NCBI RefSeq assembly: GCF_002160915.1
Contig: NZ_NFLM01000008.1
Coordinates: forward strand, 1 to 64,000
DNA: 64,000 bases
From: Faecalibacterium sp. An121
GTDB taxonomy: Bacteria > Bacillota > Clostridia > Oscillospirales > Ruminococcaceae
Direction of reading: 5' to 3'
In this document: in pieces, positions 35,871 through 41,438 of the stretch
How positions within the stretch are numbered: position 1 is the first letter of the stretch
How the letters are laid out: each line of letters opens with the position of its first letter
The notes under the pieces: generated by a model
Told to the model about the DNA's origin: nothing
Database searches by the model: none
Seen by the model: only the letters and a program-made list of their open reading frames with translations
Program-made: the position numbers and the translations under genes

Positions 35871-37685
35871 ATGAGCAACACCAACTATCCCGCATTTGAG
35901 AATTACAACCCCCGGCAGGCCGCCCTGAACGAGGCCCGCGCCCTGCTGGGCCAGGCCGCCCAGGCCGCCATGGACGCCGGGGACCTGCCCGCGGCTCCGC
36001 TGCCCGCCTTCATCGTGGAGGTGCCCGCCGACACCAAAAACGGCGACATCGCCTCCAACATCGCTATGGCCGGTGCGCGCACCTGGCACAAGGCCCCCAA
36101 GATGATCGCCGATGCCATCCTGGCTCACCTGCCCGCCCTGGAGGGCAGCTGCTTTGCCCGGGCCGAGACTGCCGGCCCCGGCTTCATCAACCTGTTCCTC
36201 TCCCCGGCCTACTGGGCCGGCGTGGTGATGGCCGCCTGCGCTTCCAGCCGCTACGGCAAGACCGATCACGGCCAGGGCAAGCGGTACAACGTGGAATTTG
36301 TTTCGGCCAACCCCACCGGCCCCATGCACATGGGCAACGCCCGGGGCGGCGCTCTGGGCGACTGCCTGTCCGCTGTTCTGGAGTGGGCCGGCTATGACGT
36401 CACCCGTGAGTTCTACATCAACGATGCAGGCAACCAGATCCAGAAGTTCGGCAAGAGCCTGGCCATCCGCTATTTGCAGCACTACTACGACGAGAGCACC
36501 TACCCCCTGCCCAAGGAGTGCTACCAGGGCGGGGACATCACCCTGCTGGCGCTGGAGTTTGCCGCCAAAGAGGGCGACCAATATGCAAAGCCCTGCCAGG
36601 GCCTGCAGGAGGACGCCCTGTACGAGAGCGAAGCCTTTGCCGCTTTGAAGGACGCTCTGGTGGCCTATGCCCTGCCCAAGAACATCGCCAACCTCAAGAC
36701 CGACCTGGGCAAATACCGCATCGAGTACGACGTCTGGTTCCCCGAAAGCACCCTGCACGAGTCGGGTGCGGTGCGCCACGTCGTGGATGAGCTGATGGCC
36801 AAGGGGGCCTGCTACAAGGCAGAGGACGGCGCCATCATGTACCGCAGCGCCCAGTACGCCGCCAAGTACGGCGCCGCCAACAAGAAAAAGAGCGAGGACG
36901 GCGCCGAGGAGGACAAGGATGAGGTCCTGGTGCGCGCCAACGGCATCCCCACCTACTTTGCCGCCGATATCGCCTACCATTACAACAAGCTGGCTACCCG
37001 GGGCTTTGACAAGGCCATCGACGTCTGGGGCGCCGACCACCACGGCCATGTGGCCCGCATGAAGGGCGCCATGGACGCCATCGGCCTGGACGGCAGCCGC
37101 CTGGACATCGTGCTGATGCAGATGGTCAACCTGATGCAGAACGGCCAGCCCGTGCGGATGTCCAAGCGCACCGGCAACGCCATCACCCTCACCGACCTGC
37201 TGGAGGAAGTGCCCATCGACAGCGCACGTTTCCTGTTCAATATGCACGAGTCGGGCAGCAGCATCGACTTCGACCTGGACCAGGCCGTCAAGACCGACAA
37301 CGACAATCCCGTCTATTATGTGCAGTATGCGCACGCCCGCATCTGCTCGATCCTGCGCAAGCTGGAGGGCACCGGGGTCCACTTCCTGGGGGTGGAGAAC
37401 ACCGACGCCACCCTGCTGACCGATCCCACCGAGCAGGACCTGATCCGTATGCTGGCCGCCTTCCCCCAGGAGATCGTCCTGGCCGCCGAGAAGTACGATC
37501 CCAGCCGGATCAACCGCTTTGTCATCGACCTGGCCAGCGCCTTCCACCGGTTCTACGGCAGCTGCCGCATCCAGGAGGCGGAGCCTTCCCTGCAGCAGGC
37601 CCGCATCGCCCTGTGCATCGGCGTGCGCAACGTCATCCGCAATGTGCTGACCATGTTCAAGATCACCGTCCCCAACAAGATGTGA
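35871..37685 (+). CDS. argS: Arginyl-tRNA synthetase
   Basis: A class I synthetase of 604 residues that charges tRNA-Arg. The HIGH motif is HMGN within NPTGPMHMGNARGG; the KMSKS equivalent is RMSKRTGN, as often seen in ArgRS. The N-terminal tRNA-recognition domain and the C-terminal anticodon-binding helices (SRINRFVIDLASAFHRFY) are present. It is the last gene of ddl-murI-DUF1934-argS and ends at a strong terminator. Confidence 0.97.
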   Translation: MSNTNYPAFENYNPRQAALNEARALLGQAAQAAMDAGDLPAAPLPAFIVEVPADTKNGDIASNIAMAGARTWHKAPKMIADAILAHLPALEGSCFARAETAGPGFINLFLSPAYWAGVVMAACASSRYGKTDHGQGKRYNVEFVSANPTGPMHMGNARGGALGDCLSAVLEWAGYDVTREFYINDAGNQIQKFGKSLAIRYLQHYYDESTYPLPKECYQGGDITLLALEFAAKEGDQYAKPCQGLQEDALYESEAFAALKDALVAYALPKNIANLKTDLGKYRIEYDVWFPESTLHESGAVRHVVDELMAKGACYKAEDGAIMYRSAQYAAKYGAANKKKSEDGAEEDKDEVLVRANGIPTYFAADIAYHYNKLATRGFDKAIDVWGADHHGHVARMKGAMDAIGLDGSRLDIVLMQMVNLMQNGQPVRMSKRTGNAITLTDLLEEVPIDSARFLFNMHESGSSIDFDLDQAVKTDNDNPVYYVQYAHARICSILRKLEGTGVHFLGVENTDATLLTDPTEQDLIRMLAAFPQEIVLAAEKYDPSRINRFVIDLASAFHRFYGSCRIQEAEPSLQQARIALCIGVRNVIRNVLTMFKITVPNKM

Positions 37686-37691
37686 CCCTCT

Positions 37692-37718
37692 CCCCGGCCT
37701 TGGGCCGGGGAATTTTTT
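37692..37718 (+). terminator. Intrinsic terminator after argS
   Basis: Arms CCCCGGCC and GGCCGGGG with a 3-nt loop, followed by AATTTTTT. Confidence 0.92.
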
Positions 37719-37825
37719 ACCGGCGGGGCCTTTGCCACAGTTCGTTCACATTCGGCACAATAAATCATCACATCTATGCTCAAAACTATACAAAATCACA
37801 AGATAATCGTTGGCGATTCTGCGAA

Positions 37826-37854
37826 TGGACAGCAGACGATTTCTCGTATATAAT
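37826..37854 (+). promoter_or_regulatory. Strong promoter of the large RNA
   Basis: TGGACA (37826-37831), 17-bp spacer, perfect TATAAT (37849-37854). The only sizeable element downstream before the next terminator is the low-GC, non-coding stretch. Confidence 0.85.
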
Positions 37855-37937
37855 AAGGCCAGAAACCAAGAAAGTACAGCAGAGGATCAAAGGAGATCCA
37901 ATCCCGCTGACTTAAAGGGAGAAAGGAGCGAAGACCG

Positions 37938-37988
37938 ATGGTTGATATGACACCCGCACAGTTCGGACAGACTGTCGGGAGTCGCTGA
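37938..37988 (+). CDS. Putative 16-codon leader peptide
   Basis: ATG with GAAAGGAG 9 bp upstream starts MVDMTPAQFGQTVGSR and stops. It is the first well-placed start in the large RNA, about 77 nt after the presumed transcript start. It may be a real peptide, a ribosome-loading site, or chance. Confidence 0.35.
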   Translation: MVDMTPAQFGQTVGSR

Positions 37989-38114
37989 AAGCGAAAAGCC
38001 GCTTAACAGGACGGGATGTTTCCCCCGTATAGATGATCTGAGAGATTTTAAAAGCGTTGTCTTTAGCGATAAATAAGCGATGAACGAGCAGTCTGTCGAG
38101 ATACCCCTCAGGCG

Positions 38115-38213
38115 ATTCAAATAGATCCGCAGGAAGTGATCCTTATGAAAGCTTTGTTACGGATGCAAGTATTTGAATAGCATGGAAGGAGCTACTCCAA
38201 TGATTTAAGTAGT
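38115..38213 (+). repeat. Module copy A in the large RNA
   Basis: Starts ATTCAAATA, then a Shine-Dalgarno-led 11-codon ORF (38145-38180), then a second Shine-Dalgarno sequence (AAGGAG) before ATG-ATT-TAA (38200-38208) and the closing TTAAGTAG. Similarity to copy B extends upstream to about 38078 (GATG..CGAGCA..TGTC). Confidence 0.75.
38145..38180 (+). CDS. Putative 11-residue peptide, copy A
   Basis: MKALLRMQVFE, preceded by AGGAAG 8 bp upstream. Its counterpart in copy B is MKIPVWMQIFE. Codons 8 and 11 and the stop differ only by synonymous or stop-to-stop changes, which hints at selection on the peptide, though A/G changes could also reflect RNA pairing. Confidence 0.35.
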   Translation: MKALLRMQVFE

Positions 38214-38599
38214 CGCGGCCTCACAAGCAGAGGCAGGATCGGATCGGAACTGATGACAGCAGCAGTAAGCTGGACCTGCATTCGATCGGTCAAAAGGGCC
38301 AGATGCCAAGGGCAGATGGCAGATCGTTCTTCTGTAAGATGTCGATTTGGATAAGCCAGAAGCTGTAAAAGGTAATTCTTACGAGAACTGCTGTACGGAT
38401 TTTGCATATATCTGGAAATTGCACACAGAAGAAAGATCCATTGGTTTGAGCGATGGTGATGTACCTCCTCAAATATCGGCGGGACCGAAGTACAATGTAC
38501 CGGAAGCTGAAAGAGCTGCAAAGCACCACTTCCCTAAGATCAGAAGATCCCCAAAGCAAGAGGCAGATGTTCCGAGCACAACTTGTCCGCGCAACGGTC

Positions 38600-38704
38600 A
38601 TTCAAATAAAGAGCAGGCCAGAAAGGATGATCTCCAATGAAAATCCCTGTATGGATGCAGATATTTGAGTAACACGGAGGGAGTACTCCAATGATTTAGG
38701 TAGC
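38600..38704 (+). repeat. Module copy B in the large RNA
   Basis: Same layout as copy A: ATTCAAATA, an 11-codon ORF (38637-38672), a GGAGG-led ATG-ATT-TAG (38691-38699) and a closing TTAGGTAG. Offset to copy A is 492 nt between the two first ATGs. A weaker third version (ATTCAATC, then ATGAAGG) starts near 38719. Confidence 0.75.
38637..38672 (+). CDS. Putative 11-residue peptide, copy B
   Basis: MKIPVWMQIFE, preceded by AAAGGA 9 bp upstream. The shape M-K-x4-M-Q-[VI]-F-E is shared with copy A. Confidence 0.35.
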   Translation: MKIPVWMQIFE

Positions 38705-38858
38705 TTGTCCCCTGGAGTGATTCAATCGAAAGAATGTGTTTCCTATGAAGGTTCTTCGTAAGACGCAATCCAACGATTCGGATGAGGCTTGACACCAATG
38801 TACTAGTTAAATCAGCAAACCACTACCCTACCATTTCCTAAAGGAAAGGCCAAATCTT

Positions 38859-38888
38859 ATGAAAGGCAAGGTCAAGACCGAAAAATAG
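38859..38888 (+). CDS. Putative 9-residue basic peptide
   Basis: MKGKVKTEK, with AAGGAAAGG 9 bp upstream; the ribosome-binding site is the 3' arm of a TTTCC/GGAAA hairpin and could be masked by it. Last Shine-Dalgarno-led mini-ORF before the terminator. Coding is unproven. Confidence 0.25.
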   Translation: MKGKVKTEK

Positions 38889-38931
38889 GTAATGCGAGGT
38901 AATGAGGCAATGACTCCGAAGAAGTAAGCAT

Positions 38932-38978
38932 CCTGGCGGATGAGAGGCTTGCAACCGCTCTCATCCGCCAGGTTTTTT
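38932..38978 (+). terminator. Strong terminator of the large RNA
   Basis: A perfect 15-bp stem (38932-38946 with 38958-38972) and an 11-nt loop are followed by six T. The 38979-39063 gap to the metG promoter shows nothing else. Confidence 0.95.
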
Positions 38979-39063
38979 GTTTGCCGCCGGGTCCTCCTGT
39001 CCTTTTCCGGTTTGGCTCCCGGGCCGGCCCGGACGCTTTGCGGCAAAAACTTTCGCCGGGCGG

Positions 39064-39092
39064 TTGACAAACCGGGTGGCTTCCTCTATAAT
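39064..39092 (+). promoter_or_regulatory. Consensus promoter of metG
   Basis: TTGACA (39064-39069), 17 bp, TATAAT (39087-39092), both perfect. Confidence 0.92.
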
Positions 39093-39098
39093 AGTCAC

Positions 39099-39412
39099 GA
39101 TATCCAAACCGGCTGTGAAGAGAAGAGTAAGCGCCATACGATCCTTGCAGAGAGCCTGCGGTGGTGGAAAGCAGGCAGGCATCGCGGCGCCGAAAATGGT
39201 CTTGGAGCCGCGCAGGCGAAGGGCATCGCACCCCAAGCCTGCGCCGGGTGCGCCCGTTACCGCGTCCGGCTGTATGCAGCGGGTCTCCCCTGCCGCAGCT
39301 TTGAGGCCGTGCCCTGCAAAGGGGCGGCAAACCAAGGTGGTACCACGGAAGTATTCTGCTCCCGTCCTTGCAGGGCCTATGCCCGGGCAAAGACGGGAGC
39401 TTTTGCTTTCTT
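39099..39412 (+). promoter_or_regulatory. T-box riboswitch, methionine specifier
   Basis: The T-box core AAGGTGGTACCACGG (39334-39348) is followed by a terminator with arms GCTCCCGTC (39358-39366) and GACGGGAGC (39392-39400) and TTTTGCTTTC. Stem I has AGAGAGCCTGC and GGTGGAAAGCAGG. The codon ATG (39196-39198), followed by GTCTTGGAG, occupies the same place relative to GAG as the specifiers of the Val and Trp T-boxes in this window, so the specifier is Met. It controls metG. Confidence 0.92.
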
Positions 39413-39452
39413 TACAGTTCTTCATTCGGGAAAAGGGAGGATTTGTTTCAAC

Positions 39453-41438
39453 ATGTCTGAGCGCAAGAAATTTTACATCACCACCCCCATCTACTACCCC
39501 AGCGACAAGCTGCACATCGGCCACAGCTACACCACCGTGGCCTGTGATGCGCTGGCCCGCTTCAAGCGGATGCAGGGCTGCGACGTGATGTTCCTGACCG
39601 GCACCGACGAGCACGGCCAGAAGATCGAGGACAAGGCTGCCGCCGCCGGCGTCCAGCCCAAAGAGTATGTGGACCGCATCGTGGCCACCGTCAAGGACCT
39701 GTGGAAGCTGCTGGATGTCAGCTACGACCGCTTCATCCGCACCACCGACGACTACCACATCCAGTCCTGCCAGAAGATCTTCACCACCCTGTATGAGAAG
39801 GGCGACATCTACAAGGGCGAGTATGTGGGCCATTACTGCAAGCCCTGCGAGAGCTTCTGGACCGACAGCCAGCTGGTGGACGGCAAATGCCCCGACTGCG
39901 GCCGCGAGGTCTATGACGCCCACGAGGAGGCCTATTTCTTCCGTACCAGCAAATACGCCGACCGGCTGCTCAAGCTGTACGAGGAGAACCCCCAGTTCAT
40001 CCAGCCCGAGAGCCGTAAAAATGAGATGATCGCCTTCATCAAGCAGGGCCTGCAGGATACCTGCGTGTCCCGCACCTCGGTCAAGTGGGGCATCCCTGTC
40101 CCCTTTGACCCCAAGCATACCATGTATGTCTGGGTGGACGCCCTGAGCAACTATATCACCGCCCTGGGCTACGGCAACGACACCTACCACGACTACGACA
40201 AATACTGGCCCGCCGACCTGCATATGGTGGGCAAGGAGATCCTGCGGTTCCACACCATCCTGTGGCCCGCCATGCTGATGGCCCTGGATCTGCCCCTGCC
40301 CAAGCGTGTGTTCGGCCACGGCTGGCTGCTGATGAACGGCGGCAAGATGTCCAAATCGGTGGGCAACGTGGTGGATCCCGTCATCCTCTGCGACCGCTAC
40401 GGCGTGGACGCCATCCGCTACTTCCTGCTGCGTGAGATCCCCTTTGGCAACGACGGTATGTTCACCAACGAAGCCCTGATCAACCGCATCAACAGCGACC
40501 TGGCCAACGACCTGGGCAACCTGCTCAGCCGCACAGTGGCCATGTGCGAAAAGTACTTCGGCGGCACGGTGTCCAGAGCCGACGGCACCGAGGCCATCGA
40601 CGCTGAGCTGGAACAGATGCTGTCCGCCCTGCCCGCCAAGGTGGCCGAGGATATGGATAACCTGACCATCCCCCAGGCCCTGACCGAGATCTTTGCGGTG
40701 GTGCAGCGGGCCAACAAGTATATCGACGAGACCGCACCCTGGGCTCTGGCCAAGGATGAGGCCAACAAGGACCGCCTGGCCTGCGTGCTCTACCATCTGT
40801 GCGAGGCGCTGCGGGTCTGCGCCATCCTGCTGAACGCTTACCTGCCCACCACTGCGCCCAAGATGATGGAGCAGCTGGGCCTGGATGCCGGCAGCCTCCA
40901 GTTGGAACTGGCCGCCTACGGCAAGCAGGACAGCTACACCGTCCACAAAGGCGATCCCCTGTTCCCCCGCATCGATGTGGCCAAGGAGATCGCTCACCTG
41001 AAGGCGGAGGACGAAAAGCGCAGGGCCGAAGCTCTGGCCGCCCAGAAAGCCAAGGAGGCTGCCGAGGCACAGCCCCAGCAGCCTGCCGCCGCGATCGAGC
41101 ATGAGGCCGAGATCGACTTTGACGATTTCTGCAAAGTGGAGATGCGGGTCGCTGAGGTGCGCGCCTGCGAGAACCTGAAGGAGAGCAAAAAGCTGCTGCA
41201 CCTCACTGTGTTCGACGGTGAGCGGGAGCGGTGCATCCTCTCCGGCATCGCCAAATGGTACAAGCCCGAGGACCTGATCGGCAAAAAGGTGGGCATCGTG
41301 GCCAACCTGGCCCCCCGTCCCATGATGAAGGGCAAGTACACCAGCGAGGGCATGATCGTGGCAGCGGACACCGCCGACGGCGGCTGTGCCATCGCATTCT
41401 ACCCCGACAGCGTCCCCGCCGGCAGCCGCATCCACTGA
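39453..41438 (+). CDS. metG: Methionyl-tRNA synthetase
   Basis: A 661-residue class I synthetase. HIGH is at residues 21-24 and KMSKS lies near residue 297 (GGKMSKSVGNVVDP). A knuckle with CKPC and CPDC binds zinc. The C-terminal 110 residues form the OB-fold tRNA-binding domain (DFDDFCKVEMRVAEV...NLAPRPMMKG), after a charged linker rich in Ala, Lys and Gln. I set the start at ATG 39453 with AGGGAGG upstream; the longer frame reads through the T-box. Confidence 0.97.
   Translation: MSERKKFYITTPIYYPSDKLHIGHSYTTVACDALARFKRMQGCDVMFLTGTDEHGQKIEDKAAAAGVQPKEYVDRIVATVKDLWKLLDVSYDRFIRTTDDYHIQSCQKIFTTLYEKGDIYKGEYVGHYCKPCESFWTDSQLVDGKCPDCGREVYDAHEEAYFFRTSKYADRLLKLYEENPQFIQPESRKNEMIAFIKQGLQDTCVSRTSVKWGIPVPFDPKHTMYVWVDALSNYITALGYGNDTYHDYDKYWPADLHMVGKEILRFHTILWPAMLMALDLPLPKRVFGHGWLLMNGGKMSKSVGNVVDPVILCDRYGVDAIRYFLLREIPFGNDGMFTNEALINRINSDLANDLGNLLSRTVAMCEKYFGGTVSRADGTEAIDAELEQMLSALPAKVAEDMDNLTIPQALTEIFAVVQRANKYIDETAPWALAKDEANKDRLACVLYHLCEALRVCAILLNAYLPTTAPKMMEQLGLDAGSLQLELAAYGKQDSYTVHKGDPLFPRIDVAKEIAHLKAEDEKRRAEALAAQKAKEAAEAQPQQPAAAIEHEAEIDFDDFCKVEMRVAEVRACENLKESKKLLHLTVFDGERERCILSGIAKWYKPEDLIGKKVGIVANLAPRPMMKGKYTSEGMIVAADTADGGCAIAFYPDSVPAGSRIH

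Follow-up and report, generated by a model that had tools for sequence, protein, structure and literature searches.

The window, that is, the whole 64,000-nucleotide stretch of Faecalibacterium DNA analysed here, contains a separate transcription unit of ~1.1 kb between argS and metG, at positions 37826-38979 of the plus strand. Sequence comparison establishes it as a stand-alone RNA gene with its own promoter and terminator and a conserved, covarying structure. The RNA carries a series of very short ORFs, three of which are two-codon minigenes consisting of an SD, AUG, one sense codon and a stop, and it is best read as a minigene-type regulator with a 5′ switch. We put at roughly 0.4 the probability that it represents a new bacterial RNA class, a chromosomal minigene battery in which a 5′ translation-sensing switch would control a row of AUG-X-stop elements that catch ribosomes and recycle them along the structured RNA; such an RNA would gauge or brake translation, with no peptide as its product.

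The RNA gene and its neighbours

The upstream gene argS ends at 37685 and is followed by a terminator-like site (37691-37711). The near-consensus promoter proposed in an earlier note on this DNA, TGGACA-17-TATAAT, is confirmed at 37826-37854 (+), where it matches 11 of 12 consensus bases; it would place the 5′ end of the RNA at ~37861. Promoter-like matches on this stretch number three, against a mean of 1.7 (sd 1.3) in shuffles, and this count is within chance; the RNA promoter itself is kept in the Faecalibacterium alignment. The intrinsic terminator, also anticipated, spans 38932-38979 (+) and comprises a perfect 15-bp stem (38932-38946 with 38958-38972) and a following T run. The GC content of the RNA stretch is low, as the earlier note had described: it lies at 42.5-49% when read in steps of 200 bases, whereas the flanks mostly have 56-73%, apart from two windows with 52-53% around 39300-39599. 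The module duplication claimed there was likewise recovered, with copies at about 38109-38208 and 38600-38699 that share a 20-nt core of 95% identity at a spacing of 491.

An inverted repeat (GTCTGCGAATAGAC-like) at the -35 box, overlapping it in several species of Faecalibacterium, is a possible operator; the window copy, at about 37818-37831, is less regular. The loop region of the terminator (38947-38957; GGCTTGCAACC-like) is kept across the Faecalibacterium short forms, which is unusual for a plain terminator. Upstream of metG lie a perfect-consensus promoter (39064-39092) and a T-box leader (39106-39372; RF00230, 106.2 bits).

A search of named genomes with a pattern from the 3′ part of the RNA returned 38 loci, 36 of which are named Faecalibacterium, Gemmiger or Subdoligranulum. 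On the same strand as the RNA, argS is found upstream in 17 and metG downstream in 13 of these 38 loci, many of the stretches being too short to tell. In five loci of the F. prausnitzii group (L052, L062, L072, L081 and L086), the stretch examined, which in some is short, contains no argS and no metG. The RNA could be taken for a leader or attenuator of the next gene, given the 13 loci in which metG follows and the position of the last ORF in the window, 4 nt from the terminator stem. We consider this very unlikely, as the neighbours differ between loci and metG of the window has a promoter and T-box of its own. Leader-peptide attenuators possess a short ORF with its 3′ end in two exclusive helices. 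In contrast to these, the RNA described here ends at its own terminator and is followed by no constant gene in the same transcript.

Distribution, size and relation to known families

By blastn, 27 of the 31 genus genomes have the RNA, among them all 22 of good quality; the four without a match are 77-83% complete. Seven sister genomes share 81-84% identity over nearly the whole 1.17 kb, and 19 more match partially. The window's genome has a single copy of the gene. The long form occurs in eight genomes of the genus, the window's included, while the match spans ~0.63-0.71 kb in sixteen, and G019, G020 and G026 are divergent.

Homologues beyond the genus were sought with R1, a covariance model of the region of ORF A (see below), and the R1 loci were chosen by that region only. 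With rough E-values and the model's own members counted, R1 matched 47 of 297 genomes of the family at E up to 0.1. Because ~30 matches would be expected by chance at this level, most of the weak ones are noise. An E-value of 1e-3 was reached by 25 of the 297, with ~0.3 expected. R1 matches were upheld with the sequence in genera g1, g9, g13, g19, g21, g26, g48, g55, g59 and g110, and the 3′ module adds g53. The total is thus 11 genera within the family, two of which (g48 and g53) are represented by partial contigs. The RNA is thus conserved well beyond the strain; confinement to it would, by the earlier note, have counted against an RNA gene. The exact 3′ pattern, which under-reports, was found across the order in the genus only (4/394).

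No secure homologue was found outside the family. The match in G631, from another family (R1 E 0.0019 among 345 genomes), was judged unproven or due to chance; it has an ORF A-like frame and a 6-bp helix H1, its helix H2 is equal to or worse than swapped partners, and the other 23 genomes of its genus that were examined had no match. G288 (R1 E 9.5e-4), with no ORF A in the stretch examined, was not accepted. G827 and G806 (E 0.007 and 0.0096 among 245) were likewise regarded as unproven or chance matches, G827 resembling coding sequence by eye. Tandem copies of the RNA gene, ~0.8 kb apart, are present in two g13 genomes, G042 (L143) and G159 (L111). In L061, on a contig filed as Candidatus Acutalibacter stercorigallinarum, ORF A and the spacing of ORFs and neighbours match those of the Gemmiger contig L056, and its taxon is possibly a matter of naming or binning. 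A phage origin was unsupported by the two exact patterns that we searched in viral contigs: the first gave two matches, both without GAGG 1-4 nt upstream, and the second gave one, inside a predicted 157-aa ORF.

The size of ~1.1 kb given in the earlier note holds for long forms of the window type but not as the typical size, since the interval that opens just ahead of ORF A and closes with the last ORF spans 0.56-0.59 kb in 16 of 26 distinct Faecalibacterium forms. In 57 RNAs, measured up to the last ORF or terminator from a point 60 nt ahead of ORF A (in R1 loci, 15 nt ahead of the model match), sizes ranged from 0.48 to 1.24 kb, and 31 of the 57 fell between 0.48 and 0.69 kb.

A protein gene was ruled out by two comparisons. 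None of six ORFs of the RNA region exceeded the Pfam cut-off (best E 0.084), and no long sense-strand frame kept a constant position among 14 homologues. Both results agree with the initial impression that the stretch has no convincing protein frame, and the homologues, which might have proved to be intact protein genes, are not. An antisense open frame lies opposite ORF A (37887-38120, minus strand) and recurs in Faecalibacterium homologues. Antisense frames near the 5′ end (57-99 aa) appear in the top-four ORF lists of 10 of the 14 homologues, whereas in Gemmiger the longest antisense run without a stop in this place is shorter, at 38-82 aa. The window copy has no Pfam match, and the open frame is probably a by-product of sequence conservation. 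This stretch and the low GC are all that speaks for a decayed protein gene or a chance low-GC island, an explanation that is contradicted by conservation across genera, the absence of a protein family and the covariation reported below, and that we regard as extremely improbable.

The covariance models of Rfam 15, at their gathering thresholds, gave nothing over the window RNA, nor did they match the RNA in 12 further loci (11 with accepted homologues, and L144). The OLE, ROOL, GOLLD and HEARO models belong to Rfam, and they too left the window RNA and the 12 loci unmatched. A known RNA family can therefore be ruled out on the strength of these searches, and the earlier statement that the RNA is not recognisably OLE, GOLLD, ROOL or HEARO stands, the threshold having been reached by none of them. 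An AdoCbl-II riboswitch was observed at L055:2945-3015, on the contig of a homologue and outside the RNA. Like OLE, ROOL and GOLLD, it is a long and structured bacterial RNA of unknown function with a transcript of its own; it differs from them in its lack of an Rfam match and in its mini-ORF modules, which go unmentioned in abstract-level descriptions of those RNAs.

Mini-ORFs and AUG-X-stop modules

The window RNA contains, in this order and all on the plus strand, ORFs A and B, an M-I-stop minigene, an insert, ORF B′, a second M-I-stop, ORF D, an M-Y-stop, and ORFs E and F. ORF A (MVDMTPAQFGQTVGSR-stop, 37938-37988) follows AAGGAG. ORF B (MKALLRMQVFE-stop, 38145-38180) occupies a slot common to other Faecalibacterium, of 10-12 codons, and minigene C1 (ATG ATT TAA, 38200-38208) follows AAGGAG-CT-ACTCCA. 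The insert of the long forms (38209-38636) is weakly conserved, with a mean identity of 0.70-0.75 in the eight genomes. Beyond it lie B′ (MKIPVWMQIFE-stop, 38637-38672), a second copy of B, minigene C2 (ATG ATT TAG, 38691-38699), ORF D (MKVLRKTQSNDSDEA-stop, 38745-38792) and minigene C3 (ATG TAC TAG, 38798-38806). ORF E (MKGKVKTEK-stop, 38859-38888) has a stop that is held through a compensated frame change in relatives, and ORF F (MTPKK-stop, 38910-38927) precedes the terminator. Mean identity among the eight long forms is 0.94-1.00 in the first module with its approach (38181-38208), B′ (0.993), the second and third modules, D (0.957), E, F and the terminator; it is 0.89 in ORF A, 0.90 in ORF B and 0.84-0.97 in the stretches between.

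Twelve SD-ATG frames were counted in the window RNA. ORF D, for which Faecalibacterium shows no clear SD, is for that reason outside this number, and four of the frames (MFPPYR-stop, MPRAD..., MADRS... and MFRAQ...) have no counterpart in the relatives compared. Only 1-3 nt separate the ATG of ORF F from the nearest GAGG. SD-M-X-stop occurs eight times on the two strands of the whole 64-kb window; four of these are on the plus strand, three of them in the RNA.

Homologues usually begin with a first ORF, most often of 16 codons, and continue with modules of an SD-like site, CC[AG], AUG, one codon and a stop. In 57 RNAs (43,396 bases), with 50 first-order Markov randomisations as control, there are 401 SD-ATG sites against a randomised mean of 153 (maximum 179) and 105 SD-M-X-stop sites against 7.2 (maximum 14). 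When the stop is placed in frame +1 or +2 instead, the 105 sites fall to 13 and 12. These counts are not independent because the homologues are related; with each taxon group reduced to a single RNA (11 groups, g55 contributing two), 20 sites in frame still stand against 0 and 5. The suggestion of an RNA that carries many mini-ORFs is thus borne out across the homologues. Between one and four SD-M-X-stop sites are present in 54 of the 57 RNAs and none in three, L145 and L144 among the latter. CC[AG] precedes the ATG in 103 of the 105 sites, a feature that the count did not require.

We also collected 112 distinct CC[AG]ATG sites with any SD or ORF, the starts of ORFs A, B and E included. The third codon is a stop in 66 of them (TAG 33, TAA 21, TGA 12, TGG 0), and in 58 of 94 if an SD is required; an A stands at -6 in 59 of the 66. 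ORF F is the same module with an ATG 9 nt upstream in frame (MTPKK, MTPII, MKPII, MTPIK), modules in Gemmiger are lengthened by whole codons (MNS-stop, MYYG-stop, MNG-stop, MYD-stop), and in ORF E one stop is reached in two frames among relatives. Interchange of stops without TGG, in-frame changes of length and frame-compensated stops are what translation predicts, and it is very probable from these patterns that selection acts on the translation of the mini-ORFs. The conservation of ORF F in the named loci is by construction, because F was part of the pattern with which they were fetched; the blastn query also contained F.

The last ORF in other groups is MY-stop, MKPII-stop, MTPII-stop or MTPIK-stop. 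In g9, g21, g26, g59, g13 and the window, 4-8 nt separate the stop of the last ORF from the stem of the terminator, as they do, by eye, in g110 and L145; the last M-Y-stop of g19 is 39-49 nt before the terminator. Exceptions to the layout include MYQS-stop at one module of L064, longer frames at one module in G014 and L087, the lack of a second module in L075 and the lack of an ORF E start in L056. An apparent ATC start in g110 and g19, which would have spoken against translation, was considered and dropped, as MKPII-stop and MTPIY-stop there have an in-frame upstream ATG (translated by eye).

The second codon of the 66 distinct sites is TAC in 47, ATT in 6, ATC in 3, GCT, TGC, TGG and AAA in 2 each, and AAC and TTC in 1 each. 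Such a preference for TAC might be expected of a minigene-type inhibitor proper, comparable to lambda bar or CreT, whose two-codon ORFs would drain the supply of one tRNA, mostly that for Tyr, by turning it into peptidyl-tRNA. In E. coli, a strong SD is described as marking the most toxic two-codon minigenes (PMC8708949), and the M-I-stop minigenes of the window use ATT, the rarer Ile codon (5 ATT, 83 ATC in five window genes). However, codon 2 may also specify Ile, Phe, Trp, Cys, Lys, Asn or Ala, and TAC is not rare, with 42 TAC against 19 TAT in the 2226 codons of five window genes, which makes tRNA depletion a decidedly improbable function for the RNA.

Lambda bar and other described two-codon minigenes, such as mg2 of axe-txe, have the SD, AUG, single codon and stop in common with the modules found here (PMC8708949, PMC8012679). 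As described, those minigenes belong to leaders of phages or operons, with effects in cis or as single toxic elements, whereas the present RNA, usually with 1-4 sites, is a structured molecule apart, ending at its own terminator and containing a conserved 5′ helix pair. It would resemble CreT as a small RNA that acts through a mini-ORF and not through a peptide (PMC8501985). CreT, however, is reported to have one ORF of 4-6 codons with two rare codons in a row and to be repressed by the CRISPR-linked CreA (PMC8501985), unlike the M-X-stop modules, in which there is one codon, mostly TAC and not rare. We file the RNA under none of its nearest known counterparts, which are the lambda bar minigenes, the CreT RNAs and OLE/ROOL/GOLLD, and our searches of open-access literature returned no description of a structured RNA that stands alone and carries two-codon ORFs in series.

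Of 47 distinct homologues from Faecalibacterium and Gemmiger, 44 have an ORF A. The remaining three are on stretches that start too late, and in one of these (L074/G020) ORF A is nonetheless visible in other data. Examples from the same slot in other genera are MSNTEPVQQWQARGR, MVKEEPKQFGQGGSCR, MVIEEPVQFWQDGTCR and MKIEEPVQFWQVCAD. The distance from SD to AUG is 11-13 nt in several genera, which is longer than usual. Of 58 copies of ORF A, 50 have 16 codons, 57 have 14-17 and a single one has 22, and an E-P-x-Q core recurs in many genera. Both this constancy of length and the core would be accounted for by a peptide operon, in which the RNA would serve as mRNA for small peptides, above all that of ORF A (e.g., an arrest peptide or a signal), with the rest being regulatory. 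Nevertheless, the Gemmiger ORF A has a different sequence (MANFKDPIHHRRAWAC), many frames comprise only two codons, and the amino acids of ORFs B, D and E vary freely. Synonymous change is almost absent from the core codons of ORF A: its proline codon is CCC in 58 of 58 copies and its glutamines are CAG in 87 of 88, which points to the RNA and the frame, and not the peptide, being kept. We hold a peptide operon to be rather unlikely, and rate it at a little under an even chance that the mini-ORFs are kept for ribosome loading, a ribosome-engagement function in which the peptides would matter little.

The 5′ helix pair and a proposed mode of action

Two helices involve ORF A. H1 (37927-37986) pairs 37927-37931 and 37935-37937, in the linker between SD and AUG, with 37982-37986 and 37976-37978, in the 3′ part of ORF A. 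H2 (37966-38097) pairs 37966-37974 with 38089-38097 and 37982-37986 with 38076-38080. The two share 37982-37986 and are therefore mutually exclusive. Across 11 group representatives, the mean duplex energy of H1 is -11.97, compared with -8.40 (sd 0.73) for swapped partners (0/20000 permutations), with weak values in some (-3.3 in L143, g13). The corresponding energies for H2 are -32.1 and -27.2 (sd 1.07; 0/20000 permutations), and both helices thus covary across genera. When the 11 partners are ranked, H2's own comes first in five groups, takes second or third place in three, and is only fifth or sixth in g59, g19 and f13; one part of H2 (alignment positions 145-149 with 248-252) is paired in only 51.6% of cells. 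Further downstream, a hairpin at 38109-38184 has the stop of ORF B at its base and presents the SD and AUG of this ORF in the loop. The SD of the first M-X-stop is able to pair with the CUCC before its AUG, so that initiation there should drop.

Covariation supports a conserved fold. RNAalifold consensus structures had compensated double changes in 17 of 119 pairs for Faecalibacterium (15 sequences) and in 16 of 168 pairs for Gemmiger (10 sequences). Among 59 pairs named by hand, the Faecalibacterium alignment has double changes in 10, five of them supplied by the terminator helix (5 of its 10 pairs), against 3.5 in shuffles. The covariation score of these 59 pairs is 0.137 against 0.070 in shuffles, and further pair types number 20 against 16.4, a value reached by 5 of 500 shuffles. 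The earlier note had offered a large structured RNA and an RNA with many mini-ORFs as alternatives; given the covarying helices, the RNA is structured and rich in mini-ORFs at once. Some of the small hairpins that it mentioned are the start regions of mini-ORFs.

These helices would also suit a structured noncoding RNA, a scaffold or catalyst of the OLE/ROOL/GOLLD kind in which the SD-AUG-stop elements only tune folding, turnover or assembly. The length, the RNA's own promoter and terminator, and the module duplication, as an expansion, fit such a molecule as well. Its weakness lies in the stop codons, which interchange without TGG, move by whole codons and are regained after frame changes, and we deem it unlikely.

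In the ribosome-engagement reading that we favour, ribosomes would load at ORF A, and translation of ORF A would melt H1 and H2 and reset the fold, making the pair a putative switch reset by translation. A ribosome that finishes one mini-ORF might re-initiate at a nearby AUG-X-stop, and ribosomes could travel along the RNA in this way, terminating and re-initiating at the M-X-stop sites. Two-codon minigenes are described as acting by ribosome engagement, peptidyl-tRNA release and re-initiation; those with a strong SD can reportedly re-initiate without dissociation, and a ribosome bound at a strong SD can stabilise the transcript (PMC8708949). The output may be bound, rapidly cycling ribosomes, or dipeptidyl-tRNAs shed by the two-codon minigenes. 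The RNA would then be a ribosome or initiation trap, or a translation brake, that responds to the translational state of the cell. Because no gene stands behind the RNA in its transcript, the effect would be exerted in trans, through an RNA that holds ribosomes, initiation factors or tRNAs.

Faecalibacterium and Gemmiger are common gut commensals. Rfam has no family for the RNA found in both, and gene finders usually set size limits far above the length of its frames. An RNA with two-codon frames blurs the line between noncoding RNA and mRNA. A useful product can hardly come from such frames, and their being kept across genera would make the act of translation itself the function.
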